Source: Acidobacteriota bacterium (GTDB lineage Bacteria; Acidobacteriota; Thermoanaerobaculia; UBA5066). From it: a stretch of DNA of 64,000 nt. Positions 1,066 through 57,860 of this stretch are shown in pieces (the first letter of the stretch is position 1; each line of letters starts with the position of its first letter). Under the pieces are notes generated by a model. The model had not been told where the DNA came from. It was given only the letters and a program-made list of their open reading frames with translations, and ran no database searches. Made by a program: the position numbers and the translations under genes. The stretch is taken from contig JAKOVQ010000001.1 in assembly GCA_029781975.1 (NCBI GenBank), positions 1-64,000 of the forward strand, read 5' to 3'.

Positions 1066-1071
1066 TATACT
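1066..1071 (+). promoter_or_regulatory. -10-like TATACT, 8 nt before the ATG at 1080
   Basis: TATACT ends 8 nt before the start codon, so transcription would begin at or next to the ATG (leaderless). No good -35 is seen at the right distance. Confidence 0.5.
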
Positions 1072-1079
1072 GACCGGCC

Positions 1080-1805
1080 ATGAACCCCATCCTCCGGAGG
1101 CTCTCGGGGATGGTCCTGGGCGAGGGGGGAGCCGCGCCGCCGGCGCTGGACGGGTTCGTCGACTCGCTGCTCCAGAAGTTCGAGAACTGCCGGGCCGGGC
1201 TGACCGACGAGACGCTCGCCCGCGGCCCGGTCGCCACCGAGCGGTTCTTCGTCGACCTCTACGCCGAGGAGACGTCCCGCCTGAGGGACGTCATCCGCCA
1301 GCAGGAGCCCCACCTCTCGGCCGCGGCGCACGACGAGCTCTTCCGGAAGGTGGACGACCTCGTCCACAAGGTCGTCGTCCCCGGCTACGTGAGGCTCTCG
1401 CACCGCTACAGCCAGCGGGAGCGGAACGGCTTCTACGCGCTCCCCGAGGGGCTGCACGGAGTGGAGCGGCTCCTCTGGGCCGTCGCGGGGATGGCGATCG
1501 GGGGCTTCGTGATCTGGGCCCCGTTCATCCCCATCTGGTCGAAGGAGTGGGTCCTGCCGTTCGCGATGGGGGGGCTCCTCTTCCCGGAGCTCCGGCGGTG
1601 GCTCTCGGTCCGGAGGTTCGAGCGGGAGCTGAACGGCCTCGTCCAGAAGGCCGACCGCGAGATCGGCCGGATCGACACCGCGTACCTGACGGACGCGACC
1701 GCGCTCGCCGAGCGGGACGCGGGGGCCGGAGCCGAGGCGGCGCGGCTCTCGGCGGCGCGCGCGGCTTCCCGGCAGGAGGCCGGCCCCGGGGAAGGGAGGA
1801 GCTGA
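1080..1805 (+). CDS. Hypothetical inner-membrane protein, first gene of the SPFH operon
   Basis: 241 residues with no family recognised. The first 130 residues are mostly charged and helical. Two hydrophobic segments follow at about 131-152 and 155-170, then a charged C-terminal tail of about 70 residues rich in Ala, Arg and Glu. It looks like a two-pass membrane protein with both soluble parts on the same side. Its stop is followed after one base by the ATG of the first SPFH gene, so the two are surely co-transcribed. It may be a partner or anchor of the SPFH proteins, which is inference from position only. The start is supported by a TATACT box just upstream. Confidence 0.75.
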   Translation: MNPILRRLSGMVLGEGGAAPPALDGFVDSLLQKFENCRAGLTDETLARGPVATERFFVDLYAEETSRLRDVIRQQEPHLSAAAHDELFRKVDDLVHKVVVPGYVRLSHRYSQRERNGFYALPEGLHGVERLLWAVAGMAIGGFVIWAPFIPIWSKEWVLPFAMGGLLFPELRRWLSVRRFERELNGLVQKADREIGRIDTAYLTDATALAERDAGAGAEAARLSAARAASRQEAGPGEGRS

Positions 1806-4159: not shown

Positions 4160-4948
4160 ATGCGCATCATCGTCCTCGTCACCGCCGCAGCCCTCGCCCT
4201 GGGCTGCACGAAGAAGGTCCCCACCGCCGCCGAGGGGACGGCGGCCCCGTCCGAGCCCTCCTCCGTCGCCCTCGCCGGGGGCCACGCCGGCGCCGAGGCC
4301 CCGGGCGGCGCCGCGATGGGGTCGCAGGCGGCCCCGTCCGTGACCGGCACCGTCCTGGAGACGATGGACGCCGCCGGCTACACCTACATGAAGCTGAAGA
4401 CCGCCGAAGGGGAGACCTGGGCGGCGGTCAACCAGAGCAAGGTCGAGAAGGGCGCGACCGTCACCGTCACCAACCCGATGCCGATGGACGGCTTCGAGAG
4501 CAAGACCCTGAACCGGAAGTTCGAGCACATCGTCTTCGGGACGCTCTCGACCGGGGCGGAGGCCCCCGCGGCCATGGCCGCCCAGCACGCCGCTGCCGCC
4601 CGCGGCCCGGCCGACGTCGGCGACGTCAAGGTCGACAAGGCGCCGGGTCCGGACGGCAGGACGGTCGCCCAGGTCTTCGCCGAGAAGGCCGCCCTGAAGG
4701 GGAAGACGGTCTCGGTGAAGGGGAAGGTCGTCAAGTTCAACGGCGGGATCATGGGGAGGAACTGGGTCCACCTCCGCGACGGCTCAGGCTCGGCGGAGAA
4801 GAAGGACGACGACCTCACCGTGACGACGTCCGACGCGGTCGCGGTCGGCGACGTCGTCACCGCGACGGGCGTCGTCGGCGTCGACAAGGACTTCGGGGCC
4901 GGCTACGCCTACCCCTTGATCATCGAGAGCGCGAAGGTCGTCAAGTAG
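4160..4948 (+). CDS. OB-fold-like lipoprotein
   Basis: 262 residues from ATG 4160. GAGGAG lies about 10 nt upstream and the first residues give a clean lipoprotein signal with lipobox ALGC (Cys16). An upstream in-frame ATG at 4136 sits 8 nt after TACGAT and could be a leaderless alternative. After a low-complexity Ala/Pro linker there are two beta-rich modules, at about 55-135 and 165-262. The second has the pattern of an OB fold (KGKTVSVKGKVVKFN, then NWVHLRDGSG). Such tandem modules occur in periplasmic proteins annotated as nucleotide-binding or NrfJ-like. No enzyme motif is seen. It may belong to the SPFH operon, but the 77-nt gap suggests its own promoter. Confidence 0.7.
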   Translation: MRIIVLVTAAALALGCTKKVPTAAEGTAAPSEPSSVALAGGHAGAEAPGGAAMGSQAAPSVTGTVLETMDAAGYTYMKLKTAEGETWAAVNQSKVEKGATVTVTNPMPMDGFESKTLNRKFEHIVFGTLSTGAEAPAAMAAQHAAAARGPADVGDVKVDKAPGPDGRTVAQVFAEKAALKGKTVSVKGKVVKFNGGIMGRNWVHLRDGSGSAEKKDDDLTVTTSDAVAVGDVVTATGVVGVDKDFGAGYAYPLIIESAKVVK

Positions 4949-5645
4949 GGGAGGGGCCTTCGCCCTCCCGCTCCGGAGGGGCCGCCTCGCCCGCGGGCGG
5001 GGCGGCGCCCCTCAGCCAGTGCGGGTCCCTCACCCTCACGCCCCACCTCACCGAGGAGAGGCGGAGGCCGACGATCGCGACGAACGCCACGGCCTCGCCG
5101 ACCCCCGTCGGGACGCCGAGCGCGTCGGCCGCCAGCCAGACCCAGCAGCCGAGGAGGGCGGGGATCGCGTAGAGGCTTCCCGGCCGGAAGATGGCCGGGA
5201 CCTCCTGGACGAAGACGTCCCGCAGGACGCCGCCGAAGGTCCCCGTCACGGTCCCGATGAGCGACGAGGAGAGGATCGGGAGCCCGGCCTCGCGGGCGAA
5301 GCGGACGCCCGTCAGGCTGAAGAGGGCGAGGCCGAGCGCGTCGATGACGACCGCGCGCCGGTCGACGAGCCGGGCGAGGGCGTAGACCTTCCGGCTGTAG
5401 ACGAAGGCGAGGCAGAGGAGGAGGAGGACGAGGAGGTACTCCTCGTTCGCGACCCAGAAGAAGGGGCGGCGGCCGAGGAGGATGTCGCGGATCGTCCCGC
5501 CGCCGAAGGCGGTGACCGTCGCCAGCCAGAACGTCCCGACGACGTCCATCCGGTGGCGGGCGGCCGAGACCATGCCGGAGAGGGCCGAGGTGACGACGGC
5601 CGCCGCCTCGAGGGCGACGGTGAGGGCGGGGACCGGGTCTCTCAC
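4941..5645 (-). CDS. TRIC/YicG-family (UPF0126) cation channel-like membrane protein
   Basis: 234 residues, about seven hydrophobic segments. The family's internal duplication is clear: GGGTIRD at 48-54 and GGVLRD at 138-143, the glycine-rich kinks that line the pore in bacterial and archaeal TRIC channels. The C-terminal 40 residues are charged and Pro-rich. The start is GTG at 5645, with TATCCT ending 8 nt upstream on the same strand and no Shine-Dalgarno, so the transcript is probably leaderless. The 3' end overlaps the convergent lipoprotein gene by 8 nt. The ion carried (potassium or another monovalent cation) is known only for relatives. Confidence 0.85.
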   Translation of the reverse strand: MRDPVPALTVALEAAAVVTSALSGMVSAARHRMDVVGTFWLATVTAFGGGTIRDILLGRRPFFWVANEEYLLVLLLLCLAFVYSRKVYALARLVDRRAVVIDALGLALFSLTGVRFAREAGLPILSSSLIGTVTGTFGGVLRDVFVQEVPAIFRPGSLYAIPALLGCWVWLAADALGVPTGVGEAVAFVAIVGLRLSSVRWGVRVRDPHWLRGAAPPAGEAAPPEREGEGPSPT

Positions 5646-5653
5646 GGGGAGGC

Positions 5654-5686
5654 AGGATAGAAGATGGCGCCGTCCGGCCGGAGAAT
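5654..5686. promoter_or_regulatory. Divergent -10-like boxes between the TRIC gene and the nucleotidyltransferase gene
   Basis: TATCCT on the minus strand (5654-5659) ends 8 nt before the GTG at 5645. GAGAAT on the plus strand (5681-5686) ends 6 nt before the ATG at 5693. The 47-nt gap therefore holds two short divergent promoters with little or no leader. Confidence 0.4.
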
Positions 5687-5692
5687 GGCGGC

Positions 5693-6508
5693 ATGGAACC
5701 AGCCGAATACGCGCGCTTCACCGCGAGGCTCCGGGCCGCCCTCGAGGCCGACCCGCGGGTCGTCGGCCTCGTCGCCCTCGGCTCGATGGCGGGCGCGGGG
5801 ACCGAGCCGGACGCCTTCTCCGACCACGACTTCTTCGTGATCACCGAGCCGGGGGCACAGGAGGTGTACCGGACGGACCTCTCCTGGCTGCCGGAGAACG
5901 ACCGGGTGGTCCTGTCGCACCGGGAGACGGAGCACGGCCTGAAGGTCCTCCTCGACGACGCCCACCTCCTCGAGCTCGCGGTCTTCGACCTCGTCGAGCT
6001 CGGCGTCGCCCGCGCGAACCGCTACGCCGTCCTCCTCGACCGGGGCGGCGTCGCCGAGCGGATGGCGGAGGTGGCCGCGAAGCGGGACCCGTCCGTCGAC
6101 GACCCGTGGCTCGCGGGCCAGCTCCTCGGGAACCTCCTCGTCGGGGCGGGGCGCGCCGCCCGGGGCGAGCTCCTCTCGGCGCGGCTCTTCGTCGCGGGGC
6201 ACGCCGCCCGCCACCTCCTGACCCTCCTCGCGCGGCACGTCCCGCCGGAGGCGCCGGCGCCGCTCGACGACCTCGACCCGTTCCGCCGGTTCGAGCGAGC
6301 CTGGCCGGGGCTCGGCGCGGAGGTGAACCTCGCGCTCGGGCACCCTCCCCTCGAGGCCGCGCTCGCCCTCCTCGACCTCGCGGACGCCGAGCTCGGCGGC
6401 CGCGTCCCGGCCTGGCCCGCGCGGGCCATGGCGGCCGTGAGGGGGAGGCTCCGCGCGTGGCGGGACGGGGAGGGCGCCGACTGGGTCCCGGGCGGAGGCG
6501 CAGCGTAG
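5693..6508 (+). CDS. Nucleotidyltransferase-domain protein
   Basis: 271 residues. The N-terminus has the pol-beta-superfamily signature: G30-S31, then D44 and D46 in the context SDHDFF, the GSx(n)DxD metal-binding pattern. The rest is an alpha-helical, Ala/Leu/Arg-rich domain of about 170 residues, as in aminoglycoside-type or MNT-like nucleotidyltransferases. The substrate cannot be told. No HEPN toxin gene is adjacent, so it is not an obvious MNT/HEPN toxin-antitoxin pair. The TAG stop is part of the TAGAAT box just upstream of tryptophanase. Confidence 0.7.
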   Translation: MEPAEYARFTARLRAALEADPRVVGLVALGSMAGAGTEPDAFSDHDFFVITEPGAQEVYRTDLSWLPENDRVVLSHRETEHGLKVLLDDAHLLELAVFDLVELGVARANRYAVLLDRGGVAERMAEVAAKRDPSVDDPWLAGQLLGNLLVGAGRAARGELLSARLFVAGHAARHLLTLLARHVPPEAPAPLDDLDPFRRFERAWPGLGAEVNLALGHPPLEAALALLDLADAELGGRVPAWPARAMAAVRGRLRAWRDGEGADWVPGGGAA

Positions 6509-6511
6509 AAT
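6506..6511 (+). promoter_or_regulatory. -10-like TAGAAT, 11 nt before the tryptophanase ATG
   Basis: TAGAAT overlaps the stop codon of the preceding gene and ends 11 nt before the ATG at 6523. The next gene probably has its own promoter with almost no leader. Confidence 0.45.
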
Positions 6512-6522
6512 CGCCGGCCGCC

Positions 6523-7908
6523 ATGCTGTACAAGACGATCATCGAGCCGTTCCGGATCAAGTCCGTCGAGGCGATCAAGTTCACGACCCGCGAGGAGCGC
6601 GAGGACGCGCTGAAGCAGGCCGGGTACAACGTCTTCCTCCTCCATGCCGAGGACGTCCTGATCGACCTCCTCACCGACTCCGGCACGGGCGCGATGTCGT
6701 CCGCGCAGTGGGGCGGGCTGATGCAGGGGGACGAGAGCTACGCCGGGAGCCGGTCGTTCTACCGGTTCCGCGACGCCGTGCAGGAGATCACCGGGTTCGC
6801 CCACGTCATCCCGACCCACCAGGGACGCGCCGCCGAGCGGATCCTCTTCCACACCCTCCTGAAGCCGGGCCAGGTCGTCCCGAACAACACCCACTTCGAC
6901 ACGACCCGGGCCAACATCGAGGTGGAGGGGGTCGAGGCCCGCGACCTCGTGATCCCCGAAGGGAAGGTCCCGTCGCTCCTCCACCCGTTCAAGGGGAACG
7001 TCGACCTCGCCGCGCTCGAGCGGACGCTCGCCGAGGACGGCGACCGGGTCCCGCTCGTGATGGTGACGGTGACGAACAACTCGGGCGGGGGCCAGCCGGT
7101 CTCGCTCGAGAACATCCGCGGCGTCCGCGCCCTCTGCGACAGGTACCACAAGCCCCTCTTCCTCGACGCCTGCCGGTTCGCCGAGAACGCCTGGTTCATC
7201 AAGATGCGCGAGGAGGGGCAGGGGGGGAAGAGCCCGAAGCAGATCGCGCAGGAGATGTTCGCGATGGCCGACGGCTGCACGATGTCGGCCAAGAAGGACG
7301 GCCTCGCCAACATCGGCGGCTTCCTGGCGATGAACGACGACGCGCTCGCCGCCGCCTGCCGGAACCTCCTCATCCTGACCGAGGGGTTCCCGACGTACGG
7401 GGGCCTCGCGGGGTACGACCTCGAGGCGATCGCCCGCGGCCTGGAGGAGGTCCTCGAGGAGCCGTACCTCCGCTACCGGATCCGCTCCACCGAGTACCTC
7501 GCCGACAAGCTGGTGGCGGGGGGCGTCCCGATCATCCGCCCCGCGGGCGGCCACGCCGTCTACATCGACGCGCGCGGCTTCCTCCCGGACGTGCCGCCGC
7601 TCCACTACCCGGGGATCGCCGTCTGCAACGCCCTCTACGTGGAGGGCGGCGTCCGCGCGGTCGAGATCGGGACGGTGATGTTCGGGCTCCACCCGGACGG
7701 CACCGAGACGCCCGGCGCGATGGACCTCGTGAGGCTCGCGATCCCGAGGCGGGTCTACACGCAGTCGCACGTCGACTATGTGGCCGAGGTCGTCCTCGAG
7801 ACGTTCCGCAAGCGCAGGGAGCTGGGGGGATGGCGGATCACGGAGGCGCCGAAGGTCCTCCGCCACTTCACGGCGCGGTTCTCACCCCTGGAGCGGCCTC
7901 AGCGGTAG
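6523..7908 (+). CDS. tnaA: Tryptophanase (tryptophan indole-lyase)
   Basis: 461 residues, the normal length for the tryptophanase / tyrosine phenol-lyase family. A PLP enzyme that splits L-tryptophan into indole, pyruvate and ammonia. The PLP lysine is K258 in SAKKD, with DACRFAEN near 215-222 and THQGR near 98-102. The residue that separates the two enzymes lies in GVRAVEIGT (377-384): tyrosine phenol-lyase has Arg after the Glu, whereas here it is Ile382 as in tryptophanase. LPY-type ends such as APKVLRHFTA also match tryptophanase. No tnaC-like leader peptide or tnaB permease is adjacent, so control differs from E. coli. The gene converges on rlpA with a 10-nt overlap. Confidence 0.88.
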   Translation: MLYKTIIEPFRIKSVEAIKFTTREEREDALKQAGYNVFLLHAEDVLIDLLTDSGTGAMSSAQWGGLMQGDESYAGSRSFYRFRDAVQEITGFAHVIPTHQGRAAERILFHTLLKPGQVVPNNTHFDTTRANIEVEGVEARDLVIPEGKVPSLLHPFKGNVDLAALERTLAEDGDRVPLVMVTVTNNSGGGQPVSLENIRGVRALCDRYHKPLFLDACRFAENAWFIKMREEGQGGKSPKQIAQEMFAMADGCTMSAKKDGLANIGGFLAMNDDALAAACRNLLILTEGFPTYGGLAGYDLEAIARGLEEVLEEPYLRYRIRSTEYLADKLVAGGVPIIRPAGGHAVYIDARGFLPDVPPLHYPGIAVCNALYVEGGVRAVEIGTVMFGLHPDGTETPGAMDLVRLAIPRRVYTQSHVDYVAEVVLETFRKRRELGGWRITEAPKVLRHFTARFSPLERPQR

Positions 7909-12668: not shown

Positions 12669-12674
12669 TATAAT
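12669..12674 (+). promoter_or_regulatory. Consensus TATAAT, 10 nt before the cyclase ATG
   Basis: A perfect -10 hexamer ends 10 nt before the ATG at 12685. The predicted transcript starts at or within a few bases of the start codon. No clear -35 is visible. Confidence 0.6.
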
Positions 12675-12684
12675 CGCGTCACCC

Positions 12685-14313
12685 ATGCTCGAGCTCGTCT
12701 ACGAAGTCGAGGGGCGCTCGCACCGCTGCCGTCTCGGAGAGACGGAGATCTCCCTCGGGCGCTCGAGCGAGAACGAGGTCGTCCTCAACGACTTCTCCGT
12801 CTCCCGGCACCACGCCGTGATCCGGAAGGAGAAGGGCGCGTGGGTCGTCGCCGACCAGAACTCCACGAACGGGGTGAAGGTCAACGGCCGGTTCGTCACC
12901 CAGTCGCCGATCGAGGCCGGCGACGTCCTGACCGTGGGGACGTTCACCCTCACGGTGCGGGAGGAGGCGCCCCCCCCGCGGCCCGTCCCGCGCGAGACGA
13001 GCGAGTCGTCGTCCACGTTCGTCCGGTCGATCGCCGACTTCAACCGCGACTTCCACCTCGACCAGGTCGCGCCCGAGGAGGTCGACCCGAACCTGACGTC
13101 GTCGGGGCGCCGGCTCACCTCGTCGCTGGCGCGGAGCAAGATCTTCGAGATCCTCGTCCAGGTCGCCAAGACGCTGATCCTCGCCCGGGAGGTCAACGAG
13201 ATCCTCGGGCGGGTCGTCGACCTCCTCTTCGAGCACCTCCCCGTCGACCGCGTCGTCGTCGTCCTCGTCGAGGAGGGGGACCGGCTCGTCCCGATGATCG
13301 CGCGGCAGCGGGGGAAGGACTCGGTCGTGGCCCAGGAGATCTTCTCCCACACGATCGTCGAGTCGGTCGTGAAGAACCGCGTGGCGGTCCTCACGTCGGA
13401 CGCGCTGGCGGACGGGCGCTTCGAGGCGGGGCAGTCGATCCGGATCCAGCAGATCCGCTCGGCGATGTGCGTCCCGCTCTGGAACCAGGACCGGATCATC
13501 GGCGCGCTCCACGTCGACACGCCGCTCCGGGCCGGCAGCTTCACGGCGGACGACCTCGACCTCCTGACCGCCCTCGGGAACTTCGCCGCGGTCGCCATCG
13601 AGCGGGCGCGGCTGCAGAAGAGGATCGAGAGGGAGGAGCGGATCCGGGAGCGCCTCTCGCGCTACCACTCGCCCGGCGTCGTCGAGGAGATCGCCGCCGA
13701 CTCGAGCGGCGTGGTGGAGAGGGTGCGGACGCGGAACGTGACGGTCTTCTTCGCCGACATCGTCGGGTTCACGTCGGCGGCCGAGGGGATGGAGCCCGAC
13801 TCGCTCTCCCGCTTCCTCGGGACCTACTTCACCTACGCGGCCGAGGCGATCTTCGCGGAGGGGGGGACCCTCGACAAGTTCATCGGGGACGCGGTGATGG
13901 CGTTCTTCGGCGCGCCGATCCCGCAGGCGGACCACGCCCGCCGCGCCGTCGCGGCGTCGGCCAAGCTGGTGGAGAACGTGAGGACGTGGAACCGGGAGCG
14001 CGCGGCGCGCGGCGAGCCGCCGGTCTCGGTCCGGATCGGCGTCAACACCGGAAACGCCGTGGTCGGCGACATCGGCTCCGAGCAGCGCGTCGACTACACC
14101 GTCCTCGGAAACACGGTGAACGTCGCCGCGCGGCTCGAGGAGTACGTCGCGGGGCCGAACGAGATCGCGGTCGGGGAGGAGACGGCTCGCCAGACGTGGG
14201 AGCTCTTCTCGTACGAGCCGCTCGGCGAGGTCCGCCTGAAGGGGCTCTCGCGCGGCCTCGCCGCCTACAGGGTCCGGCTCGACGCCCGGGGCGTCCCGCT
14301 CCTGACGCGGTGA
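12685..14313 (+). CDS. FHA-GAF-class III adenylate/guanylate cyclase
   Basis: 542 residues. An FHA phosphothreonine-binding domain at about 1-95 has GRSSENEVVLND and SVSRHHAVI. A GAF domain spans about 160-315. A class III cyclase catalytic domain at about 340-530 has FFADIVGFTS (first metal Asp), DKFIGDAVMAFFG (second metal Asp and purine-contact Lys) and VDYTVLGNTVNVAARLE (Asp plus transition-state Asn/Arg). The Lys/Asp pair favours ATP as substrate, so it should make cAMP. The combination suggests a soluble enzyme tuned by Ser/Thr kinase phosphorylation and a small ligand. The stop overlaps rdgB. Confidence 0.9.
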   Translation: MLELVYEVEGRSHRCRLGETEISLGRSSENEVVLNDFSVSRHHAVIRKEKGAWVVADQNSTNGVKVNGRFVTQSPIEAGDVLTVGTFTLTVREEAPPPRPVPRETSESSSTFVRSIADFNRDFHLDQVAPEEVDPNLTSSGRRLTSSLARSKIFEILVQVAKTLILAREVNEILGRVVDLLFEHLPVDRVVVVLVEEGDRLVPMIARQRGKDSVVAQEIFSHTIVESVVKNRVAVLTSDALADGRFEAGQSIRIQQIRSAMCVPLWNQDRIIGALHVDTPLRAGSFTADDLDLLTALGNFAAVAIERARLQKRIEREERIRERLSRYHSPGVVEEIAADSSGVVERVRTRNVTVFFADIVGFTSAAEGMEPDSLSRFLGTYFTYAAEAIFAEGGTLDKFIGDAVMAFFGAPIPQADHARRAVAASAKLVENVRTWNRERAARGEPPVSVRIGVNTGNAVVGDIGSEQRVDYTVLGNTVNVAARLEEYVAGPNEIAVGEETARQTWELFSYEPLGEVRLKGLSRGLAAYRVRLDARGVPLLTR

Positions 14314-16469: not shown

Positions 16470-16615
16470 TTCCCGTCAGGCAAGGACCAGCGTCAGGGGC
16501 GTTCTCAGGGCTGCGAGTCTAGAAGATGCGGCCGGCGGAGCCAAGGGGGGCGTGGGCCGGTTCGCGGGAGGAGCGAAGGGGAGGCGTCGCCGGGGCGATG
16601 CGTCAGAATCGCGGC

Positions 16616-18946
16616 ATGACGATGCCCTCCCCCGGCCGCCCCGCGAACCGCCTCGCCGGCGAGACGTCGCCGTACCTCCTCCAGCACGCGCACAACCCGG
16701 TCGACTGGTTCCCCTGGGGTCCCGAGGCCTTCGAGAAGGCCCGGAAGGAGGACCGGCCGGTCTTTCTCTCCATCGGCTACTCGGCGTGCCACTGGTGCCA
16801 CGTGATGGAGCGCGAGTCGTTCGAGAGCGACGAGATCGCGCGGATCCTCAACGAGGGATACGTCTCGGTCAAGGTCGACCGCGAGGAGCGGCCCGACGTG
16901 GACGACGTCTACATGACGGCGGTCCAGGCGCTCGTCGGCCGCGGCGGGTGGCCCCTCTCGGCGTTCCTCTTCCCCGACGGGCGGCCCTTCTTCGGCGGGA
17001 CCTACTTCCCGCCCGACGACCGCGGGCACCGGCCCGGGTTCCGGACGCTCCTCCTCGGCCTCCTCGACGCGTGGCGCGACAGGCGCTCCGAGCTGGAGGA
17101 GGCGGCGAGCCGGATCGTCGGCGAGGTGGAGCGGGCCAACGGCCTGACCGATCGGCTCGAGCGCGCGCCGCTCGGCCCGGCCACGCTCGACCGGCTGACC
17201 GACGCGCTGAGCCACGCGTTCGACGCGCGCCACGGCGGCTTCGGCGGCGCGCCGAAGTTCCCGCCCCACCTGGCGCTCGAGTGGCTCCTGCGGAAGGGGG
17301 CGGAGGGGGACGGCGGGGCCCGCGCGATGGCCGCCCGGACCCTCGAGGCGATGGCGCTCGGGGGGGTCCACGACCACCTCGGCGGCGGCTTCCACCGCTA
17401 CTCCACCGACGAGCGGTGGCTCGTCCCCCACTTCGAGAAGATGCTGACGGACAACGCCCAGCTCCTCGCGCTCTACGCGCGGGCGTTCGTCCTGACCGGC
17501 CGGGACCTCTTCCGGCGCGTGGCGCGCGGCGTCGGCGACTACCTCCTCGCCGAGATGCGCGGCGCCGAAGGGGGGTTCTTCGCGGCGACCGACGCCGACT
17601 CGGAAGGGGCCGAGGGAAAGTTCTTCGTCTGGTCCGAGGCGGAGGTCCGCGAGGTCCTCGGCGGCGGCGACGCGGACCTCTTCTGCCGGCACTACCGGGT
17701 CTTCCCCGAGGGGAACTTCCACGACGAGGCGACCGGCCGGCCGACGGGCCTCAACATCCTCCACCTCGCCTCGGAGCCGTCGGCGGAGGAGGAGAGGCGG
17801 CTCGCCCCGCTGCGGGAGAAGCTGAAGGCACGACGGGCCGGGCGCGTCCCGCCGGGGCTCGACGACAAGCGGATCGCCGGCTGGAACGCGCTCGCGGTCT
17901 CGGGCCTCGCCGTCGCGTCCCGGGCCGTCGGGGAGCCGGTCTACCTCGACGCCGCGCGTTCCGCGGCCCGCTTCGTCCTCGGCCGGATGCGGGACGCCGG
18001 CGGGCGGCTCCTCCGGAGCTGGAAGGGGGGCGACGCCAAGGTCGTCGCGTTCCTCGAGGACGAGGCGTTCCTGGCGCTGGCCCTCCTCGACCTCGCGGAG
18101 GCCGAGCCGGAGGAGGAGGCGGCAGCGGAGTGGCTCGCCGAGGCGCGACGCGTCGTCGCGGTCCTGAGGCGGCGCTTCCGGAGGCCGGGGAGGCCGGGGT
18201 TCACGTTCACGGGCGAGGGGAACGAGCCGCTCCTCGTGAGGGGGCGCGACCTCTGGGACAAGGCGATCCCGTCGGGCTCCGGGGCCGCGACCCTCGCCCT
18301 CGTCCGCCTCGCGGCGCGCGATCGCGACGCCGCCCTCGCGGCCGAGGCGCTGGAGGCGCTCGAGGACGCTTCCGGCCTGATGGCGCGGGCGCCGCACGGG
18401 ACCGAGTCGTGGCACGTCGCCCTCGCCGAGCTCCTGGAGAGCGGCCTCGTCGGGACCGGGGAGGACGGCACCGTCGGCGGACGGGCCGCGGGCACAAGCG
18501 GGGAGCCCCGGCCCGACGCGCGGGGAGGAAGCGAGGTCCCGAGGGCGGACGTTCCCGTGATGGTCACGGCGTCCGCCTCGTCGGCGGTCCTCCGCCCGGG
18601 CGAGGCCTTCGAGGTGGCTCTCGCGGTCACGGTCGCCGAGGGCTGGGCCCTGACCGGCGACGGGGCTCTGCGGGTCGAGGCGTGGGGCGGCCCAGACCTC
18701 TTCCGTGGCGGCGTGCGGGTGCCGCCCCCGACGGCGGTCGCGCACGAGGACGGGACGACCGAGCCCGGCTACGAGGGGACCGTCCCCGCCGTCCTCGCCT
18801 TCCAGGTGAGCCCGGACGCCGCCGAGGGGGAGTACGCCGTGTCGGTCTCGGTCCGCTACCGGGCCTGCGGCGACGGGCGGTGCCTGCCCGAGCGGGCGGC
18901 GGCCCTGACCGTCCCGCTCGAGGTCCGCCGCGGCGGCAGGACGTGA
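16616..18946 (+). CDS. DUF255 thioredoxin-domain protein (YyaL/SPATA20 family) with DsbD-like C-terminal domain
   Basis: 776 residues from ATG 16616, which lies 6 nt after CAGAAT. The N-terminal DUF255 thioredoxin-like domain has [21 protein letters not shown] near 11-31 and the redox motif CHWC at 58-61. A six-hairpin glycosidase-like domain follows, with [21 protein letters not shown] near 257-277 (given here only as a landmark). Usual family members end near residue 640. Here about 130 more residues resemble the N-terminal domain of DsbD ([14 protein letters not shown], with Cys751 and Cys756). This suggests a fused thiol-exchange module. No signal peptide is seen, so the location of the fusion is puzzling. 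Confidence 0.85.
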
Positions 18947-29458: not shown

Positions 29459-29525
29459 AGCGGCGGGACCGGGACCCCGCGCCGGGGCCTCTCCGGGCCG
29501 CCCGCGCCTCCGCTAACATCGGCCG

Positions 29526-30110
29526 GTGATGCCGCCCGTCCCTCGCCCGTTCCGCCTCCTCGCCTCCCTTCCGCTCCTCGCCGCGCTCGGCGCGCCCGCG
29601 TTCGAGGTCCACGCGGCCGCGGCCGCCGGCGCCCCGCCGCCGGCGCAGGAGGTGGTCCGGGCGGCCCGGGAGAGGGCGGGGCGCGAGGGGAAGGCCGTCC
29701 TCGTCCTCTTCCACGCCTCCTGGTGCGGCTGGTGCCGGAAGCTGGAGAGGTGGACGGAGTCCCCCGCCGTCCGGCCCGTCCTCGACCGGAGCTTCGAGAC
29801 CGTCTGGCTGACGGTCCTCGAGCGGGGCGAGAAGAAGAAGCTCGAGAACCCCGGCGCGGACTCTCTCCTGAAGTCGCTCTCGGGAGGGGTCGCGACGGGG
29901 CTCCCGTTCTTCGCCGTCCTCGACGCGAAGGGGAAGGTGCTCGGGACGTCGATCCGCCCGGTCGCGGGAGGCCCGGGAGAGAACGTGGGGTTCCCGGCGA
30001 CCCGCGAGGAGCTGGCGCACGTCGCGAGCCTCCTCCGCAGGGGGGCGCCGAAGGCGTCCGCGGCCGAGATCGAGGCCGCGGTGCGGGCCTTCGGCGGCCC
30101 GGCCAGCTGA
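29526..30110 (+). CDS. Exported thioredoxin-fold protein
   Basis: 194 residues from GTG 29526 (or ATG 29529). TAACAT ends 6-9 nt upstream, so it is probably leaderless. A signal peptide of about 30 residues is followed by a thioredoxin fold with redox motif WCGWC near residue 70, similar to the SoxW/thioredoxin-7 type. A loop between about 95 and 125 carries many charged residues (ERGEKKKLENP). It probably acts in periplasmic disulfide reduction. No partner reductase is adjacent. Confidence 0.82.
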   Translation: MMPPVPRPFRLLASLPLLAALGAPAFEVHAAAAAGAPPPAQEVVRAARERAGREGKAVLVLFHASWCGWCRKLERWTESPAVRPVLDRSFETVWLTVLERGEKKKLENPGADSLLKSLSGGVATGLPFFAVLDAKGKVLGTSIRPVAGGPGENVGFPATREELAHVASLLRRGAPKASAAEIEAAVRAFGGPAS

Positions 30111-32006: not shown

Positions 32007-32251
32007 TCGGGGATGTCCGACTCCGAGCTGGGCCGCGAGAGGAGCTTCGGCGCCCGCTGCTCGGCCACCGCCTGCGGGTGGAGCTCGTCGTGCCGGCCGC
32101 CGTAGCGGTCGTAGCAGGGCCGGCAGTAGCGGAAGTCGGGACGGAAGGCGTAGTCGACGACGATCCCGACGGCGAGGAGCTCGTCGGCCGAGTCGCCGCA
32201 CGAGTCGCACGTCCCGGGGAGGCGGAGGAGCTTCCAGACGGGTCCGGACAT
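32003..32251 (-). CDS. Small zinc-ribbon-like protein (82 aa)
   Basis: 82 residues. CDSC at 15-18 and CRPC near 43-46 make a plausible zinc ribbon, and the tail is rich in Ser, Glu and Pro. The ATG lies 7 nt after TAAACT on the same strand, so the mRNA is probably leaderless. Translation of mqnE is coupled through GTGA. Function unknown. Confidence 0.7.
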   Translation of the reverse strand: MSGPVWKLLRLPGTCDSCGDSADELLAVGIVVDYAFRPDFRYCRPCYDRYGGRHDELHPQAVAEQRAPKLLSRPSSESDIPE

Positions 32252-32258
32252 GCCGCGG

Positions 32259-32264
32259 AGTTTA
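32259..32264 (-). promoter_or_regulatory. -10-like TAAACT before the zinc-ribbon/mqnE operon
   Basis: TAAACT on the minus strand ends 7 nt before the ATG at 32251. No Shine-Dalgarno fits in the gap. Confidence 0.5.
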
Positions 32265-32329
32265 CTGGACGGCGGCCCCGGAGCGGCGAGGCGGCGCGGT
32301 CGGGGACCGGGGCGGGGGAGAATCGGGCC

Positions 32330-33079
32330 GTGACGCTCCGCTCCACCACGGCGTTCGTTCTGCGGGTCGACCCGATCTCGGAGAAGGACGTCGCCGTCTC
32401 GTTCCTCACGCCGGACCTCGGCGTCGTCCGGGGCGTCGTCGCCGGGGGGAGGGGAAAGGGGCGGAAGGGCGCCCTCCTTCAGCTCCTGACCGAGGTCTCG
32501 GTGACGTTCTTCGTCCGAGAGGGGCGCGACCTCGCCCGGGGCGACGCGCTCGAGATGAAGGCGAGCGCGTTCGCGCTGGCGACGCGGGCCGAGACGGCGA
32601 TGCTCCTCCCGTACCTGGCCGAGAGCCTCTCGACCTTCCTCCCCGAGGCGGACGCGGCGCCGGAGACCTACCGGCTCGTCCGGCACGTCCTCGACGCGCT
32701 CGGCGCGGGGGTGCCGGCCGACCTGGCCGCCCGCTACTTCGAGGTCTGGCTCCTTCTCCTCGCCGGGCTCCTCGCGGATCCCGGGACCTGCGCGGGCTGC
32801 GGCCGGCCGCTCGCCGGCGAGGCCGTGAGGCTCGACCCGGAGGAAGGGGCGTTCGTCGGGCCGGAATGCGGGGGGCGGGGCGGCCTCCCTCTTTCGCCCA
32901 CGACGCTGGCGCTCCTCGCCCGGCTCCGGCGCGCGCCGCTCGGCGCGCTCGCGGCGGAGCGGCTCGCGGGGCCGGACGACCTCCGGGCGCTGGAGGCCCT
33001 GGCACGGGAGATCCGGCGCCGCTTCCTGGGGCACGAGCTGAAGAGCTACCGCTTCCTCGAGGCCCTCGGTCCGGACTGA
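32330..33079 (+). CDS. recO: DNA repair protein RecO
   Basis: 249 residues from GTG 32330, 6 nt after GAGAAT. RecO loads RecA on SSB-coated single-stranded DNA with RecR. The N-terminal OB fold (about 1-80) has VLRVDPISEKDVAVSFLTPDLG. The helical middle and zinc-binding region have CAGCGRPL near 148-155 and ECGG later. The C-terminal HELKSYRFLEAL matches the family end. Normal length. Confidence 0.9.
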   Translation: MTLRSTTAFVLRVDPISEKDVAVSFLTPDLGVVRGVVAGGRGKGRKGALLQLLTEVSVTFFVREGRDLARGDALEMKASAFALATRAETAMLLPYLAESLSTFLPEADAAPETYRLVRHVLDALGAGVPADLAARYFEVWLLLLAGLLADPGTCAGCGRPLAGEAVRLDPEEGAFVGPECGGRGGLPLSPTTLALLARLRRAPLGALAAERLAGPDDLRALEALAREIRRRFLGHELKSYRFLEALGPD

Positions 33080-36976: not shown

Positions 36977-36982
36977 TACACT
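36977..36982 (+). promoter_or_regulatory. -10-like TACACT, 11 nt before the GreA-like start
   Basis: TACACT ends 11 nt before the ATG at 36994. The same hexamer is used in the PBP promoter at 57849-57854. Confidence 0.45.
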
Positions 36983-36993
36983 CCGGCCCCGTC

Positions 36994-39093
36994 ATGAACG
37001 TCTCGGAGATCAGCACCCTCCTCTCGGAAAAGCGATACGACCAGGTCGAGGTCGTCGTCAAGGACGCGCTCCTCGAGCCCGAGGCCAACGCGGAGCTCCT
37101 CCTCGCGGCCTTCCGGGGGCTCGCCCGCCTCTCGGCCCAGAAGGGCCGCCTGCAGAGCCTGGCGAGCCTCGCCGACGCCACCCTGAAGGGGGCGGACGCC
37201 CCGCTCGAGCGGGCGCGCCTCCGCTGGACGCTCCTCAAGGAGGCGACGAAGGCGGGTGCGACGCCCTCGGCCGCGGAGGGGTTCCACAGGCTCTTCGAGG
37301 AGGTCCTCGGCGCCGCCTACCCCGACAGCCCGTCGCTCTCCGCCCTCCTCGGGCGCTTCAAGTTCCGCGAGGCGAAGGAGCCCGCCGAGGGCCTCGCCCG
37401 GATGGAGCGCGCGGAGAAGTGGATCCCGTTCGAGACGGGCCGCGTCTTCTTCATGCCGGGGCGCGGGGCAGGCCGGATCGTCGAGACGAACTTCGCCCTC
37501 GACGCCGTCCGGATCGACTTCGAGACCGCTAAGGGGATCTCGATCCCGATCGGCTCGGCCTCCAGGAGCCTGGTGCCGCTCCCCGAGGGGCACTTCCTCC
37601 ATCGCAAGCTGACCGATTTCGACGCGCTCCAGGCGGAGACGCGGGAGAGCCCCGCCGAGGCCGTCCGGCAGCTCCTCGCCTCGTTCGGGAAGAACCTGTC
37701 GCTCCAGGAGCTGAAGGAAGGGCTCGCCGGCCTCGTCCCCGAGGAGAGGTGGACGTCGTTCTGGGCGGCGGCCCGCAAGCACCCGCAGGTCGTCGTCCAC
37801 GGGAGCGGCAAGTCCGCGACGATCGAGTGGTCGCAGTCGGCCGAGGCCGCCGACGAGGTCTTCTACTCGAAGTTCGAGAAGGCCCACGGTCCGGACGGGA
37901 GGCTCGACTTCTACCGGAAGAACGCCAAGCGGGACGCCGCCCTCTCGGAGCGGATGGCCGCGCGGCTCTCGGACGAGGCCAACGCCCTCCGCGCCGGGGG
38001 CGACGAGGCCCGGGCGCTGGAGATCGCCGTGGCGCTCGAGAAGGCCCCCGGCGCCCGGCTCGCCTTCCGCCCCGAGGAGCTGATCCCCGAGCAGCCCCTG
38101 CCGCTCCTGGCCAGGCTGAAGGACCGGATCGCGCGCGAGCGGGTCCTCGAGAGCGTCCTCCAGGCGCGCGGCGCCGAGGGGGCCCGCGTCCTGGCCGACT
38201 GGTTCCTGAAGGAGGAGGACGGGAGGACGCTCGACCTGATCGACCGGCGCCTCAAGGAATCCCATCCGGAGCTCCGCGAGTCGACGTTCGAGCGGCTCCT
38301 CCGGACGCCGCGCAGCGGCCCGCGCGCCTTCGTCTGGTTCGCGCAGCGGGCCGTCGACGACGACGAGTTCCGCGCGCGGCTCTCCGCGGCGGTCCTCGGA
38401 CGCCTCCTCGACGCCCTCTCCTGGGACGAGCTCGGCGCGGCCCGGAACAAGCTCCGGGAGTGCTTCGACCGGACGGGCCTCGCCGCCAGCTGGCTCGTGA
38501 AGCAGGCGACGCTCGAGGACGCCCAGCACTTCCTCCAGGCGCTCCAGCGGCACAACGAGCTCGAGCCCCACCGGCGCGCCGCGCTGATGGGGGCGGCCGA
38601 GATGCGCTTCCCCGAGCTCCGGAAGAAGGTCGACGAGAGCTTCTTCGTGACGCCCGACTCGCTCGAGGCCAAGCGGCACGAGCTCGAGCACATCATGAAG
38701 GTGGAGATCCCCGAGAACACGAAGGGGATCGCGCTGGCCGCGGCCGAGGGGGACCTCTCGGAGAACTTCGAGTACAAGGCCCGCCGCGACAAGCAGCAGC
38801 TCCTCTCCGTCCGCGCGGGGCAGCTCCAGGAGCAGCTCGCGAAGGCGCGGGTCCTCGACCCGGCGGCGATCGACACCTCGGAGGTGAGGCCCGGCACGCG
38901 CGTCACCCTCGCCACCTCGTCCGGCCCGAAGGCCGTGACCCTCCTCGGCCCGTGGGACTCCCGGCCCGAGGAAGGGATCTACTCGTACCTTGCCGACGTG
39001 GCCAAGGCCATCCTCGGCCGCAAGCCGGGGGAATCCGTCGTCTGGATGGGAGAGCTCGCGACCGTGGAGAAGATCGAGACGTGGAAGGCCTGA
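36994..39093 (+). CDS. Long GreA/GreB-type transcription elongation factor (699 aa)
   Basis: GreA factors rescue backtracked RNA polymerase by stimulating transcript cleavage. The last 145 residues (about 555-699) form a GreA module. The coiled-coil tip GDLSENFEYKARRDKQQ carries the acidic residues that enter the secondary channel, followed by a FKBP-like C-terminal domain (GPWDSRPEEGIYSYL). Ahead of it are about 550 residues of mainly helical repeats plus an SH3/KOW-like patch (IPFETGRVFFMPGRGAGRI near 145-163). Similar very long Gre proteins occur in Chlamydia and spirochaetes. Normal GreA has about 158 residues. Confidence 0.82.
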   Translation: MNVSEISTLLSEKRYDQVEVVVKDALLEPEANAELLLAAFRGLARLSAQKGRLQSLASLADATLKGADAPLERARLRWTLLKEATKAGATPSAAEGFHRLFEEVLGAAYPDSPSLSALLGRFKFREAKEPAEGLARMERAEKWIPFETGRVFFMPGRGAGRIVETNFALDAVRIDFETAKGISIPIGSASRSLVPLPEGHFLHRKLTDFDALQAETRESPAEAVRQLLASFGKNLSLQELKEGLAGLVPEERWTSFWAAARKHPQVVVHGSGKSATIEWSQSAEAADEVFYSKFEKAHGPDGRLDFYRKNAKRDAALSERMAARLSDEANALRAGGDEARALEIAVALEKAPGARLAFRPEELIPEQPLPLLARLKDRIARERVLESVLQARGAEGARVLADWFLKEEDGRTLDLIDRRLKESHPELRESTFERLLRTPRSGPRAFVWFAQRAVDDDEFRARLSAAVLGRLLDALSWDELGAARNKLRECFDRTGLAASWLVKQATLEDAQHFLQALQRHNELEPHRRAALMGAAEMRFPELRKKVDESFFVTPDSLEAKRHELEHIMKVEIPENTKGIALAAAEGDLSENFEYKARRDKQQLLSVRAGQLQEQLAKARVLDPAAIDTSEVRPGTRVTLATSSGPKAVTLLGPWDSRPEEGIYSYLADVAKAILGRKPGESVVWMGELATVEKIETWKA

Positions 39094-46698: not shown

Positions 46699-46946
46699 TT
46701 CCTCGGGTCCTCCCCGCGGAGGAGGTTCTCGACGAGCATCAGGACCCGGACGATGTACGAGTTGAGCGTTAGCCCGAATGACTCCGCAGTCGCTCGGACT
46801 GCGTCCTTCTCGAGCGGAGAGAGGTAGAGGCTCACCCTCTCCGTCTTTCCAAACGCCTCCTCGATTCGCTCGGGAGGCAGTTTGCGGAGGAGCTCGGCGA
46901 GCTGGTCGAGCTGTTCAGAGTGCTTCTGGCTCAAAGGAACCCTCAC
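46695..46946 (-). CDS. Small DNA-binding-like protein (possible ribbon-helix-helix)
   Basis: 83 residues from GTG 46946. CTG 46955, overlapping the serine recombinase stop, is an alternative. The central stretch ERVSLYLSPLEKDAVRATAES followed by LTLNSYIVRVLMLVENLL looks like a ribbon-helix-helix (strand, helix, helix). The N-terminal part is a Leu-rich helix. It lies between the two recombinase genes with overlaps on both sides and may control them. Family assignment is tentative. Confidence 0.55.
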   Translation of the reverse strand: MRVPLSQKHSEQLDQLAELLRKLPPERIEEAFGKTERVSLYLSPLEKDAVRATAESFGLTLNSYIVRVLMLVENLLRGEDPRK

Positions 46947-46951
46947 GCGTG

Positions 46952-47659
46952 TCAGGCGGCCGCCGCGAGCTTCTCGGTGCGGCGAATGGTCATGAGGACG
47001 ACGTTTGACGGCCATACGTGGGAGCCATTCTGACGCCGGATCTGACGTCGTTCCAGTTCGCCGGCGATAGCCCTCAGCGAGAGCCCATCCGCCCTCATCC
47101 TTATCATGAGGCGAATCGCGGCCTGCTCTTCCTCGACGGCGACTAGCTGACTGCCCTCCAAGCGGTAGCCGTAGGGGATCTTCCCGGAGATCCGGAGGCC
47201 CTGCCGACGCTTGAACGCAAGGGCCGAGGTCGTCCTCTCCGAGACGAGGTCCCTCTCGAACTCGGCGAGGACCGCGAGCATCCGGAACACCATCTTGCCC
47301 GCGGCCGACGTCGTGTCGATCGCCTCGGAGAGGGAGACGAGGTCGGCGCCGGCCTTCTCGAGCCGCTCGGCGATCGCGAGGGCGTCCCGGGTCGACCGGG
47401 CGACCCTCGAGAGGGAGTAGACGACGAGGGGGGCCCGGCGGCGGCAGACGTCGGAGAGGGCCGCCTGGAGCCCCGGGCGGTTGTCAGCGCGCCCGCCAGA
47501 CAACCCCGCGTCGACGTGCACGGCGGCGAGCTCGAGGCCCTGAGCGGCCGCCCACGCGCGAATGCGGGCCTCCTGCGCCTCCAGGGAGACACCCTCGGAC
47601 GCCTGGCGCTCGGTGCTGACCCTGACGTACCCGACGGCAATCTTAACGGTGCTTTTCAT
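46952..47659 (-). CDS. Serine recombinase (resolvase/invertase type)
   Basis: 235 residues from ATG 47659, behind a good promoter. The catalytic domain starts VGYVRVSTERQ with nucleophile Ser15, then YSLSRVARSTRDALA (Arg motif) and AEFERDLVSERT. The C-terminal 80 residues (GLRISGKIPYGYRLEG, then an HTH near the end) form a short recombinase domain, so it is a resolvase-size protein, not a large phage integrase. Its substrate site may be the 28-bp repeat 190 bp upstream. Confidence 0.9.
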   Translation of the reverse strand: MKSTVKIAVGYVRVSTERQASEGVSLEAQEARIRAWAAAQGLELAAVHVDAGLSGGRADNRPGLQAALSDVCRRRAPLVVYSLSRVARSTRDALAIAERLEKAGADLVSLSEAIDTTSAAGKMVFRMLAVLAEFERDLVSERTTSALAFKRRQGLRISGKIPYGYRLEGSQLVAVEEEQAAIRLMIRMRADGLSLRAIAGELERRQIRRQNGSHVWPSNVVLMTIRRTEKLAAAA

Positions 47660-47666
47660 AACGTAA

Positions 47667-47695
47667 AATATGACGCTGTCACTGCTCGGTGTCAA
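47667..47695 (-). promoter_or_regulatory. Promoter of the serine recombinase/int operon
   Basis: TTGACA (perfect -35, 47690-47695) and CATATT (47667-47672) are 17 bp apart on the minus strand, and TATTTT is available two bases later. AT-rich for this genome. It drives the leftward recombinase genes. Confidence 0.75.
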
Positions 47696-47848
47696 GGCCC
47701 CCTCTTCGATGTTCATGACCGCTCGGTTGCTACCCCCCCTCGCGCGAGCTCCGGGGGGGGTCTCGAAACCGCCCGGAACCGTTTCGGCCCGTACCCTCCA
47801 CGGGCCTCTCGGGCCCCGGTGCCGCCGAGTCGTTCCGAAGTGGGCCTA

Positions 47849-47876
47849 GACGCCATAAACGCGGTTGACGCGGAAA
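47849..47876. repeat. 28-bp direct repeat, left copy
   Basis: Perfectly identical to 53311-53338. Key part: ATAAACGCGGTTGACGCGG. It lies about 190 bp upstream of the serine recombinase start. Confidence 0.75.
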
Positions 47877-48018
47877 AGCCCCCACAAGGGGGGGGCGCAC
47901 TGGCGCGTTTTTCGTAAGTGCGACGCAAGTTCGCTTGTTCCTGCCCGCCCACCCGGCCGAAGGGACGGCCGACCCGAAGCGGGTCAAGCGGCGTACAGTT
48001 CCCCCCGCGGAGGTCCCC

Positions 48019-48594
48019 ATGAGACGAGCCGCTCTCCTCCTGGCCGTCGCCTTCCTGGTCTTACCCGCCTCGGCCGACGAAGTCGTGATGAAGGACGGCA
48101 CGGTCGCGTGCCTCGCGAAGCCCTACACGACGAAAGGGGCCCTCGCGGTGTTCACCCTCTGCGACGGCCGTCTCGTCTCGTTCCCTCTCGCACAGGTCGA
48201 CCTCGAGAGGACCGCCCAGCTCAAGCGCGACCCGAGCTCGGTGAAGGCGTCCTCGCGCCTCGGCTATCCGCCGCCGGCGCCGGTCTACCGTCCGTCGGAG
48301 GACCGCCGCGAAGGGGCCTCCCCCCTCGCCGCCGCCGGCGCCGCGAGCTCGCCGAGGCCGAAAGGGACGCCGAGGGCGATCACGCTCCAAGGCTCAGCGC
48401 CCGCGCCGGCCGAGCCGAGCGCGTACTACGCGCCGAGTGCTGGTTCCGCCTCGGGCGGCGGAGCCCCGAAGACGGTGCACGTCTCGGGCTACACGCGTTC
48501 GGACGGCAAGTACGTGCAGGGCTACGACCGGAGCGCGCCCCACAGCGGGGGCCATTCCTCGAGTTCGGGCGGGCGCGGCGGCGGGAAGCACTGA
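48019..48594 (+). CDS. Secreted low-complexity protein, island cargo
   Basis: 191 residues from ATG 48019, with GCGGAGG 4 nt upstream and TACAGT further up. A signal peptide (about 1-19, ending PASA) is followed by a small beta-rich module (KDGTVACLAKPYTTKG), a Pro/Ser/Ala linker and a C-terminal motif VHVSGYTRSDGKYVQGYDRS like the short repeats in various bacterial surface proteins. It ends in Gly/Ser/His. Function unknown. Confidence 0.65.
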   Translation: MRRAALLLAVAFLVLPASADEVVMKDGTVACLAKPYTTKGALAVFTLCDGRLVSFPLAQVDLERTAQLKRDPSSVKASSRLGYPPPAPVYRPSEDRREGASPLAAAGAASSPRPKGTPRAITLQGSAPAPAEPSAYYAPSAGSASGGGAPKTVHVSGYTRSDGKYVQGYDRSAPHSGGHSSSSGGRGGGKH

Positions 48595-48731
48595 AGTCCC
48601 ATGGAGCTATCCGATGCGGAAGGGAACCGGGCAACGTGAATCCCGGAAGGCCCTTTGACCGTAATAGAGGACGTGCGGGGCGCTCGGCCCTGGGAACCCA
48701 TTTCACTCGAGTGGGGGAGTTTGCCTCGCCG

Positions 48732-48759
48732 TTTACGATTTTCGCGGCTTGAATAGTAT
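48732..48759 (+). promoter_or_regulatory. Promoter of the DUF2335 cargo pair
   Basis: TTTACG (48732-48737) and TAGTAT (48754-48759), 16 bp apart, in an AT-rich patch 67 nt before the ATG at 48827. Confidence 0.55.
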
Positions 48760-48826
48760 CCTCGGGCAGAGAGGTCCCGCCGTCACAGATTGGCGGGGCC
48801 AGGAGAAGGGATCAGGGGGGACCAGC

Positions 48827-49078
48827 ATGGACGAATTCGTCTTCGCAGCGCGCGAGGTCAGCTCGGATTTCCTCGTCGCGCGCCCCTCCGGACGCTCGGG
48901 CCTTGCGAGACTCCTCGACCTCTTTGCCGGGTTCGACGGGTACAACACGAGCCGGGACGGGGTTGCAGCCGACGGGAAGGCGATGCGTGCTGACTGGCTT
49001 GTCATCGGGCAGGATCTTAAGGTCGCCGTCTCGCGCTTCCGTGCCGATCATCCGAGCGTCGCTGGGTCGGAGCGGTAG
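48827..49078 (+). CDS. Hypothetical 83-aa island protein
   Basis: Starts MDEFVFAAREVSSDF and has GLARLLDLFAGFDGYNTSRDG and a closing WLVIGQDLKVAVSRF helix. No family recognised. G-rich sequence GGGGGGA lies before the ATG. Codon use is less GC-biased than in chromosomal genes. The stop TAG is followed at once by the TTG start of the DUF2335 gene, so the two form a unit. Confidence 0.55.
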   Translation: MDEFVFAAREVSSDFLVARPSGRSGLARLLDLFAGFDGYNTSRDGVAADGKAMRADWLVIGQDLKVAVSRFRADHPSVAGSER

Positions 49079-49567
49079 TTGGCGCGCCACGAGCGGCCAG
49101 GGTCTGGACAGCATCAGGCTCTTACTGCACGCGGCACCGAGGACCGAAACGGAAGCAAGGTCGAGCTCGCCTTCCACAAGGGCCCGCTACCTCCAGCGGA
49201 GCAGATAGAACGGTACGCGGCCGTCTATCCCGACGCGCCGAGGATCATCTTCCAGGCATTCGAGTCACAGGTTGCCCATCGGCAGAACCTAGAGCGAACG
49301 GTGATCGAGAGCAATGCTCGCGCACAGGAGCGTGCTCCGATCATCGGCGGGATCCTGGCCGGGCTCGTTATGATCGGCGGCTTCCTCGTCGTCCTCCTGA
49401 ACAAGGACCCGTGGGGATACGCGGCGATCCTTACGGCTGGCGCCGGCCTTGTCGGGACTGCGATCTGGATGAGGAAGGAGCAGGCGAAGGAACGCCGCGA
49501 GAAGGAAGAGGCGCTCGCCCGCTCCGAGGCTGAGCGCCAAGAGCCTCAGCCCAAGCGATTGCCCTGA
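49079..49567 (+). CDS. DUF2335-family membrane protein
   Basis: 162 residues, starting at TTG immediately after the previous stop. The family signature is clear: FHKGPLPPAEQIERYAAVYP followed by FQAFESQVAHRQNLE (HxGPLPxPExLxxYexxxP). Two transmembrane segments lie at about 97-113 and 118-136, and the cytosolic tail is Glu/Lys/Arg-rich. The molecular role of DUF2335 is unknown. Its place as mobile cargo next to a small partner suggests a selfish or protective function, which is inference. Confidence 0.8.
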   Translation: MARHERPGSGQHQALTARGTEDRNGSKVELAFHKGPLPPAEQIERYAAVYPDAPRIIFQAFESQVAHRQNLERTVIESNARAQERAPIIGGILAGLVMIGGFLVVLLNKDPWGYAAILTAGAGLVGTAIWMRKEQAKERREKEEALARSEAERQEPQPKRLP

Positions 49568-49587
49568 GCTTCGCCTGACGCAATGGG

Positions 49588-49611
49588 CGTTCACGACCGT
49601 GCCCTCGTGAA
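49588..49611. terminator. Hairpin between convergent cargo genes
   Basis: GTTCACGA and TCGTGAAC (8 bp, loop of 8) sit between the plus-strand stop at 49567 and the minus-strand stop at 49652. No T-run. Candidate two-way terminator. Confidence 0.45.
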
Positions 49612-49651
49612 CAGCCGAGAGGGCGCAAGTCCCCTCGAACTAGCCGAACAC

Positions 49652-49924
49652 TCAACCGGGCACGAAGTGACTCTCCGCTTGCACCCGGATCGTGGAGAAC
49701 GAATACACGAAGTCGCCGATAGAGACCTCGGCCCACTCCTCCCGTTCGATGCGGGGGCGCTGCTCGCTCGCGATCCTCGCCTCCATCTCCGTCTGGACGG
49801 GCCCGGGGAGCCGATGACCGGGTCCGAGGAAGAGCTGAGTCAGCTTTCCATCCCTTACTCGCAGGGCGAGTGTCGGCGACCACTCTTCACTCTCCACGGT
49901 GCGGAACCTCACGAAGGCGTACAT
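49652..49924 (-). CDS. Hypothetical 90-aa island protein
   Basis: ATG 49924 has GAGGAGGT 5 nt upstream, better than the two upstream in-frame ATGs. The sequence MYAFVRFRTVESEEWSPTL suggests a small alpha/beta protein with strands at both ends and a charged middle (ARIASEQRPRIEREEW). No family recognised. It converges with the DUF2335 gene. Confidence 0.5.
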   Translation of the reverse strand: MYAFVRFRTVESEEWSPTLALRVRDGKLTQLFLGPGHRLPGPVQTEMEARIASEQRPRIEREEWAEVSIGDFVYSFSTIRVQAESHFVPG

Positions 49925-50038
49925 GCGGACCTCCTCTTGGGCCATGACCAACCGTTCCACCGAGAATAGGTCCATCCTCGCCTCCCAGCCCGTCGCCCGC
50001 GGCCTTGCAGGGCGGGCCGCTACGTTACGAAACTCGGA

Positions 50039-50061
50039 CGAAACGATCCGGAATCGTTTCG
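50039..50061 (-). terminator. Hairpin after the island sigma gene
   Basis: A perfect 9-bp stem CGAAACGAT / ATCGTTTCG with loop CCGGA, 10 nt past the stop of the sigma-like gene on the minus strand. Less GC-rich than its surroundings, which makes chance less likely. Confidence 0.5.
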
Positions 50062-50070
50062 AAACGCCCG

Positions 50071-50649: not shown

Positions 50650-50661
50650 GAAGCCCTCGCG

Positions 50662-50707
50662 AAAAAGGGCCCCTCCCCTCGCGGAGGTGACGAGCAAGGG
50701 GAGGGGC
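50662..50707 (-). terminator. Intrinsic terminator just upstream of the sigma gene
   Basis: On the minus strand: an 11-bp perfect stem (50697-50707 with 50669-50679), a 17-nt loop, then CC and TTTTT (50662-50666). It follows the long leftward operon and ends 12 nt before the sigma GTG. This is the best intrinsic terminator in the window. Confidence 0.75.
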
Positions 50708-50790
50708 GGAGGGAAAGCCTGCCGCCGGGTCTCCGCGTCCCCGGCCCGGAAAGGAGGATCCGGCCCGAGTCCCCCCGGCGACAGGACGAG

Positions 50791-51644: not shown

Positions 51645-51660
51645 CGGGGGCTCCTTTCGG

Positions 51661-52306: not shown

Positions 52307-52307
52307 G

Positions 52308-55107: not shown

Positions 55108-55239
55108 GAGGGGACGGTCTCTACCGGTGGCGGTGCTATCCTTCGGACCTCGCTCCCCATCCCCATGACGTTGAGCCGCCGGCCAGGGCGGCTCTTCGGT
55201 TTTCAGGGGATCACTTCTGTACGGCATCGATCTCTCCTG

Positions 55240-57859: not shown

Positions 57860-57860
57860 G

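Follow-up and report, generated by a model that had tools for sequence, protein, structure and literature searches.

About one gene in six in the genome described here has a −10 box right before its start codon, and the mRNAs of these genes are predicted, very probably, to be leaderless. The genome represents a little-studied, Thermoanaerobaculia-like lineage. Among named sequences, those nearest to its purB belong to Acidobacteriota MAGs, one carrying the label Thermoanaerobaculia, and the taxon is deduced from this. Acidobacteriota are mostly uncultured and are annotated by rules based on Shine-Dalgarno (SD) sequences, and about one-sixth of the starts in this genome are better marked by the −10 box than by SD. 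The window, that is, the whole 64-kb stretch of DNA analyzed, comes from a 5.37-Mb genome in 54 contigs (73.3% GC); neither tRNA nor Rfam families were found in it. Starts were called from codon usage alone with a purpose-written gene caller. Since the caller does not use the upstream sequence, upstream motifs cannot bias the choice of starts. A strict box is defined as TANNNT, and the gap is the number of nucleotides from the end of the box to the start codon. Upstream regions were assigned by a three-class mixture model (SD, TA, or neither). The anti-SD sequence is inferred from the SD peak.

The box of the FHA-GAF-adenylate cyclase gene (12685–14313, plus strand; domains from Pfam) is described first. 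TATAAT at 12669–12674 is followed by 10 nt and by ATG at 12685, the element as a whole spanning 12669–12687. Homologues of the protein were found in 31 of the 31 genomes searched and align from residue 1, the start codon being one or two codons off the aligned position in the three most divergent ones. The box is retained next to the start codon in 26 of the 28 homologue upstream regions compared, while the flanking sequence has diverged. As for the other two, L127 stops short of its start, and the A+T-rich L137 is unreadable. The box takes the forms TATAAT, TAAACT, TAGAAT, TACAAT, and TAACAT and lies 6–17 nt before the start codon, and no conserved −35 element is found in the 28 regions. The gaps of 13–17 nt in some homologues indicate leaders of several nucleotides, so that short leaders also occur.

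The original prediction named 11 starts in the window with a −10-like hexamer 6–11 nt upstream, all of which were recovered independently by the caller. A strict TANNNT box is present at eight of them, whereas the other three have looser boxes, two of which are ambiguous with SD. Besides the box at 12685, the strict ones are as follows (gene assignments from Pfam). TATACT lies at gap 8 from ATG 1080 (1066–1082, plus strand; posterior 0.999), and TATCCT at gap 8 from GTG 5645 of a glycine-transporter-family gene (4941–5645; element 5643–5659, minus strand; posterior 0.985). TAGAAT precedes the ATG of a beta-eliminating lyase gene (6523–7908) at gap 11 (6506–6525, plus strand; posterior 0.993). 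TAACAT is found at gap 6 from GTG 29526 of a thioredoxin-like gene (29514–29528, plus strand; posterior 0.998), and TAAACT at gap 7 from ATG 32251 of a short ORF (32249–32264, minus strand; posterior 0.997). TACACT occurs twice, at gap 11 from ATG 36994 of a gene with a C-terminal GreA/GreB domain (36977–36996, plus strand) and at gap 6 from GTG 57861 of a penicillin-binding protein (transglycosylase/transpeptidase) gene (57849–57863, plus strand).

The looser box CAGAAT stands at gap 6 from ATG 16616 of a DUF255/thioredoxin-like gene (16604–16618, plus strand; posterior 0.96). GAGAAT is at gap 6 from both ATG 5693 (5681–5695, plus strand) and GTG 32330 of recO (32318–32332, plus strand; Pfam RecO). 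These two boxes overlap GGAG and GGGGGAG, respectively, and SD is about equally likely there (posteriors of 0.54 for TA and 0.44 for SD at 5693, and of 0.48 and 0.50 at 32330). Further, weaker candidates come from the mixture model, at 26200 (minus strand), 47659 (minus strand), 61144, and 63393 (minus strand). In the divergent pairs at 5643–5695 and 32249–32332, just 47 and 78 nt separate the start codons, and a −10-like box for each of the two genes is packed in between; two promoters placed back to back in this way would have almost nothing else of the sequence in common. The called genes in 46700–57600 are mostly short with poor codon-usage scores, and the region resembles a genomic island or a decayed region.

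Two more window boxes could be followed in relatives. Seven relatives retain TACACT or TAGACT ahead of their homologue of the gene at 36994; six of them have it 10–11 nt before ATG, and the remaining one 6 nt before GTG. For the gene at 57861, six relatives with differing N-termini also have a box at a distance of exactly 6 nt from GTG. In two 36994 homologues (L185 and L193), GTGATG follows the box, which places the GTG 8 nt and the ATG 11 nt from it, and either codon could start the protein.

Strict boxes at gap 6–11 precede 8 of the 59 called starts in the window, whereas 1.2 would be expected given the upstream background of this genome (Poisson p = 3 × 10⁻⁵). The tally was extended to about one-third of the genome (1.7 Mb of 5.37 Mb, 1,325 starts; an earlier pass covered 1.3 Mb and 995 starts), where 151 starts have TANNNT at these gaps versus 26.7 expected. 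The pattern is thus too regular for chance, as had been claimed. The numbers of boxed starts at gaps 6, 7, 8, 9, 10, and 11 are 50, 30, 26, 24, 11, and 10, compared with 5 starts at gap 5 and 4.5 per position in the background. The first T of the box accumulates at −12 to −17, and the distribution ends in a cliff at gap 6. The standard distance between the −10 element and +1 in sigma-70 promoters is 6 nt, and the cliff is expected if this distance applies and +1 cannot fall inside the coding sequence. The excess is marked among divergent genes (62 versus 8.4 expected, p ~ 1 × 10⁻³²), and no TANNNT peak is seen in front of 11,464 internal in-frame ATG/GTG codons.

This profile bears on the idea that the A+T-rich hexamers are not promoters but a by-product of composition near starts, where structure is low and intergenic DNA is A+T-rich. 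Genes here are indeed more GC-rich than intergenic DNA. However, the peak spans only gaps 6–11 and drops off sharply below 6, the box is invariant at its T, A, and T positions, the neighboring upstream positions are at background, and the box persists in homologues with diverged surroundings. The by-product explanation is contradicted by the positional profile and was rejected as extremely improbable. Chance was also considered and rejected, as was misassignment, in which the true starts would lie further inside the genes behind ordinary leaders. The latter might be entertained because the calls depend only on codon usage. Contrarily, the homologues aligned from their first residue keep the box at the aligned start, raw counts of a box with ATG or GTG made without gene calls give the same peaks, and genes with gap 9 never have ATG, GTG, or TTG as the in-frame codon at gap 6. 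Misassignment is therefore very unlikely.

The box and SD exclude each other: an SD core is found at 2.4% of the boxed starts versus 52% of the others, in agreement with the earlier statement that such starts mostly have no SD. The mixture model gives 54% SD, 22% TA, and 24% neither; three-quarters of the TA class falls at gaps 6–11, corresponding to ~16% of genes. The proposal of widespread leaderless mRNA thus stands as a prediction, within a range from ~9% of genes (excess of strict TANNNT) to 16% (mixture). The boxed share is 21% for divergent genes and 5% for genes that follow a same-strand gene by less than 30 nt, and boxed genes are mainly the first in transcription units, a trait of the TA-like leaderless class. 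A −35 element is rare, with TTG at −24/−23 in 8 of the 151 boxed starts. The base directly 3′ of the box is C in 99 of the 151 and A in 5, a preference that is weaker in the Nonomuraea control described below.

We consider it highly likely that the boxes are −10 elements abutting the start codon, presumably of the sigma-70 type judging from the hexamer, and that the mRNAs are leaderless or nearly so. A housekeeping −10 element so near the start codon would make the transcript begin at the A or G of this codon or a few bases off. An mRNA whose −10 box lies directly before the start would very probably begin at the start codon with no ribosome-binding leader, and would be translated through direct recognition of its 5′-terminal start codon. 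SD leaders would serve most of the remaining genes.

The same pipeline was applied to three controls. Nonomuraea gerenzanensis, an actinomycete with 72.9% GC, has 74 boxed starts versus 15.8 expected, almost all at gaps 6–8, and a mixture share of 18%. Plasmid 1 of Deinococcus deserti has 24 versus 6.0 expected. A Rhizobium plasmid shows no excess (3 versus 5.6 expected; mixture 4% with a degenerate motif). It should be noted that the mixture model is unreliable for small or weak sets, giving degenerate motifs with the Deinococcus plasmid and Rhizobium.

The position of +1 relative to the start codon should also be noted. The boxes could be −10 elements with +1 at the usual 7–8 nt downstream, so that genes with gaps of 8–11 have leaders of 1–5 nt. 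This arrangement, which we regard as possible but rather doubtful, agrees with the gaps of 9–11 that are common here and practically absent from the actinomycete control (45 of 151 versus 3 of 74 boxed starts, p = 2 × 10⁻⁶), and with the gaps of 13–17 in some homologues. The preference for a pyrimidine at −1, typical of transcription starts, is also weak (62% in boxed versus 51% in SD genes), unlike that in Nonomuraea (87% versus 62%), which speaks to some degree against initiation at the start codon's first nucleotide. However, such leaders would not explain why the identity of the start codon depends on the gap. At gap 6, 31 GTG and 19 ATG are found, whereas gaps 7–11 have 21 GTG and 78 ATG (p = 1.4 × 10⁻⁶; 1.7 Mb). 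In the raw counts, the GTG excess is 37 at gap 6 versus 16 at gaps 7–11, and the ATG excess is 20 versus 72. Purines are, moreover, depleted rather than enriched at spacer positions 7–11, the region from position 7 onward being the usual starting place of RNA polymerase. Among ATG genes with gaps 8–11, 60 purines are counted at spacer positions ≥7, whereas the frequency in ATG genes lacking both box and SD predicts 92 (z = −4.9). The depletion and the preference of GTG for gap 6 together suggest that transcription begins at the very first base of the start codon.

The coupling is repeated in six other genera of the window's family (gaps 6 and 9; own genome excluded), with a Mantel-Haenszel odds ratio of 1.77 (p = 1 × 10⁻⁶), and is less pronounced elsewhere in the class (odds ratio 1.32, p = 8 × 10⁻⁴), though these tests are not fully independent across genomes because orthologous genes recur among them. 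No bias toward GTG at gap 6 is seen in the Nonomuraea control, and G028, a genome of the same class with just 26 boxes, has too few for the test. We tentatively propose, at somewhat less than even likelihood, that in the window's family the start codon is tied to promoter geometry, GTG at exactly gap 6 and ATG at gaps 6–11. Its first base would be the initiating nucleotide, G being accepted only at the optimal distance and A over a wider one.

Pattern counts in ~150 genomes show that the signal is present throughout the window's class. TANMMT-N6-ATG exceeds a control with a 21-nt gap (p < 0.001) in 19 of 62 Acidobacteriota families, represented by one genome each, and the 19 include each of the six families sampled from the window's class. 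A reversed-pattern control was dropped since its composition was unmatched. In the 62-family sample, a strong GTG signal is restricted to the family of the window (5.4-fold). Six genomes of one family in the window's class (G025, G028, G128, G137, G145, and G168) have a clear ATG signal at gap 6 and no GTG signal, and the use of leaderless GTG thus appears to differ among families of one class.

A −10 box beside the start also makes it possible to map promoters with single-base precision independently of RNA data. If confirmed, the tie between GTG and 6 nt would be a sign, readable from sequence, of transcription starting on the start codon, and one testable in other phyla. A literature search of limited, partial coverage found no description of a GTG-at-gap-6 rule and no transcript-start study in Thermoanaerobaculia.

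Leaderless genes have been predicted in many phyla from a TA-like signal ~10 bp upstream (Zheng 2011, PMC3160421), with a mean of 13.3% (9.7–19.4) in three Acidobacteria genomes, and with 19% in Actinobacteria. The same TAnnnT signal in high-GC genomes is found here in different species; the accessible part of that study contains no relation of start codon to gap. In mycobacteria, ATG or GTG (RTG) at +1 suffices for a leaderless start (Shell 2015, PMC4633059). Both codons serve there as 5′-terminal start codons, as proposed here, while a preference of GTG for one gap, which distinguishes the present genome, does not appear in the accessible part of that report. In Deinococcus radiodurans, ORF-adjacent boxes act as RpoD-bound −10 elements that produce leaderless mRNA (2025, PMC12340547), and the Deinococcus-Thermus motif is backed by mutation, RpoD binding, and reporters. 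Both systems have TANNNT beside the ORF, mostly without −35, the commonest form there being TACACT. The Deinococcus-Thermus motif lies ~6–7 bp upstream of ~30% of ORFs, whereas the boxes here lie 6–11 nt upstream of ~16%. These comparisons place the boxes within a known leaderless-gene architecture, and its predicted extension to a Thermoanaerobaculia-like lineage is well supported.
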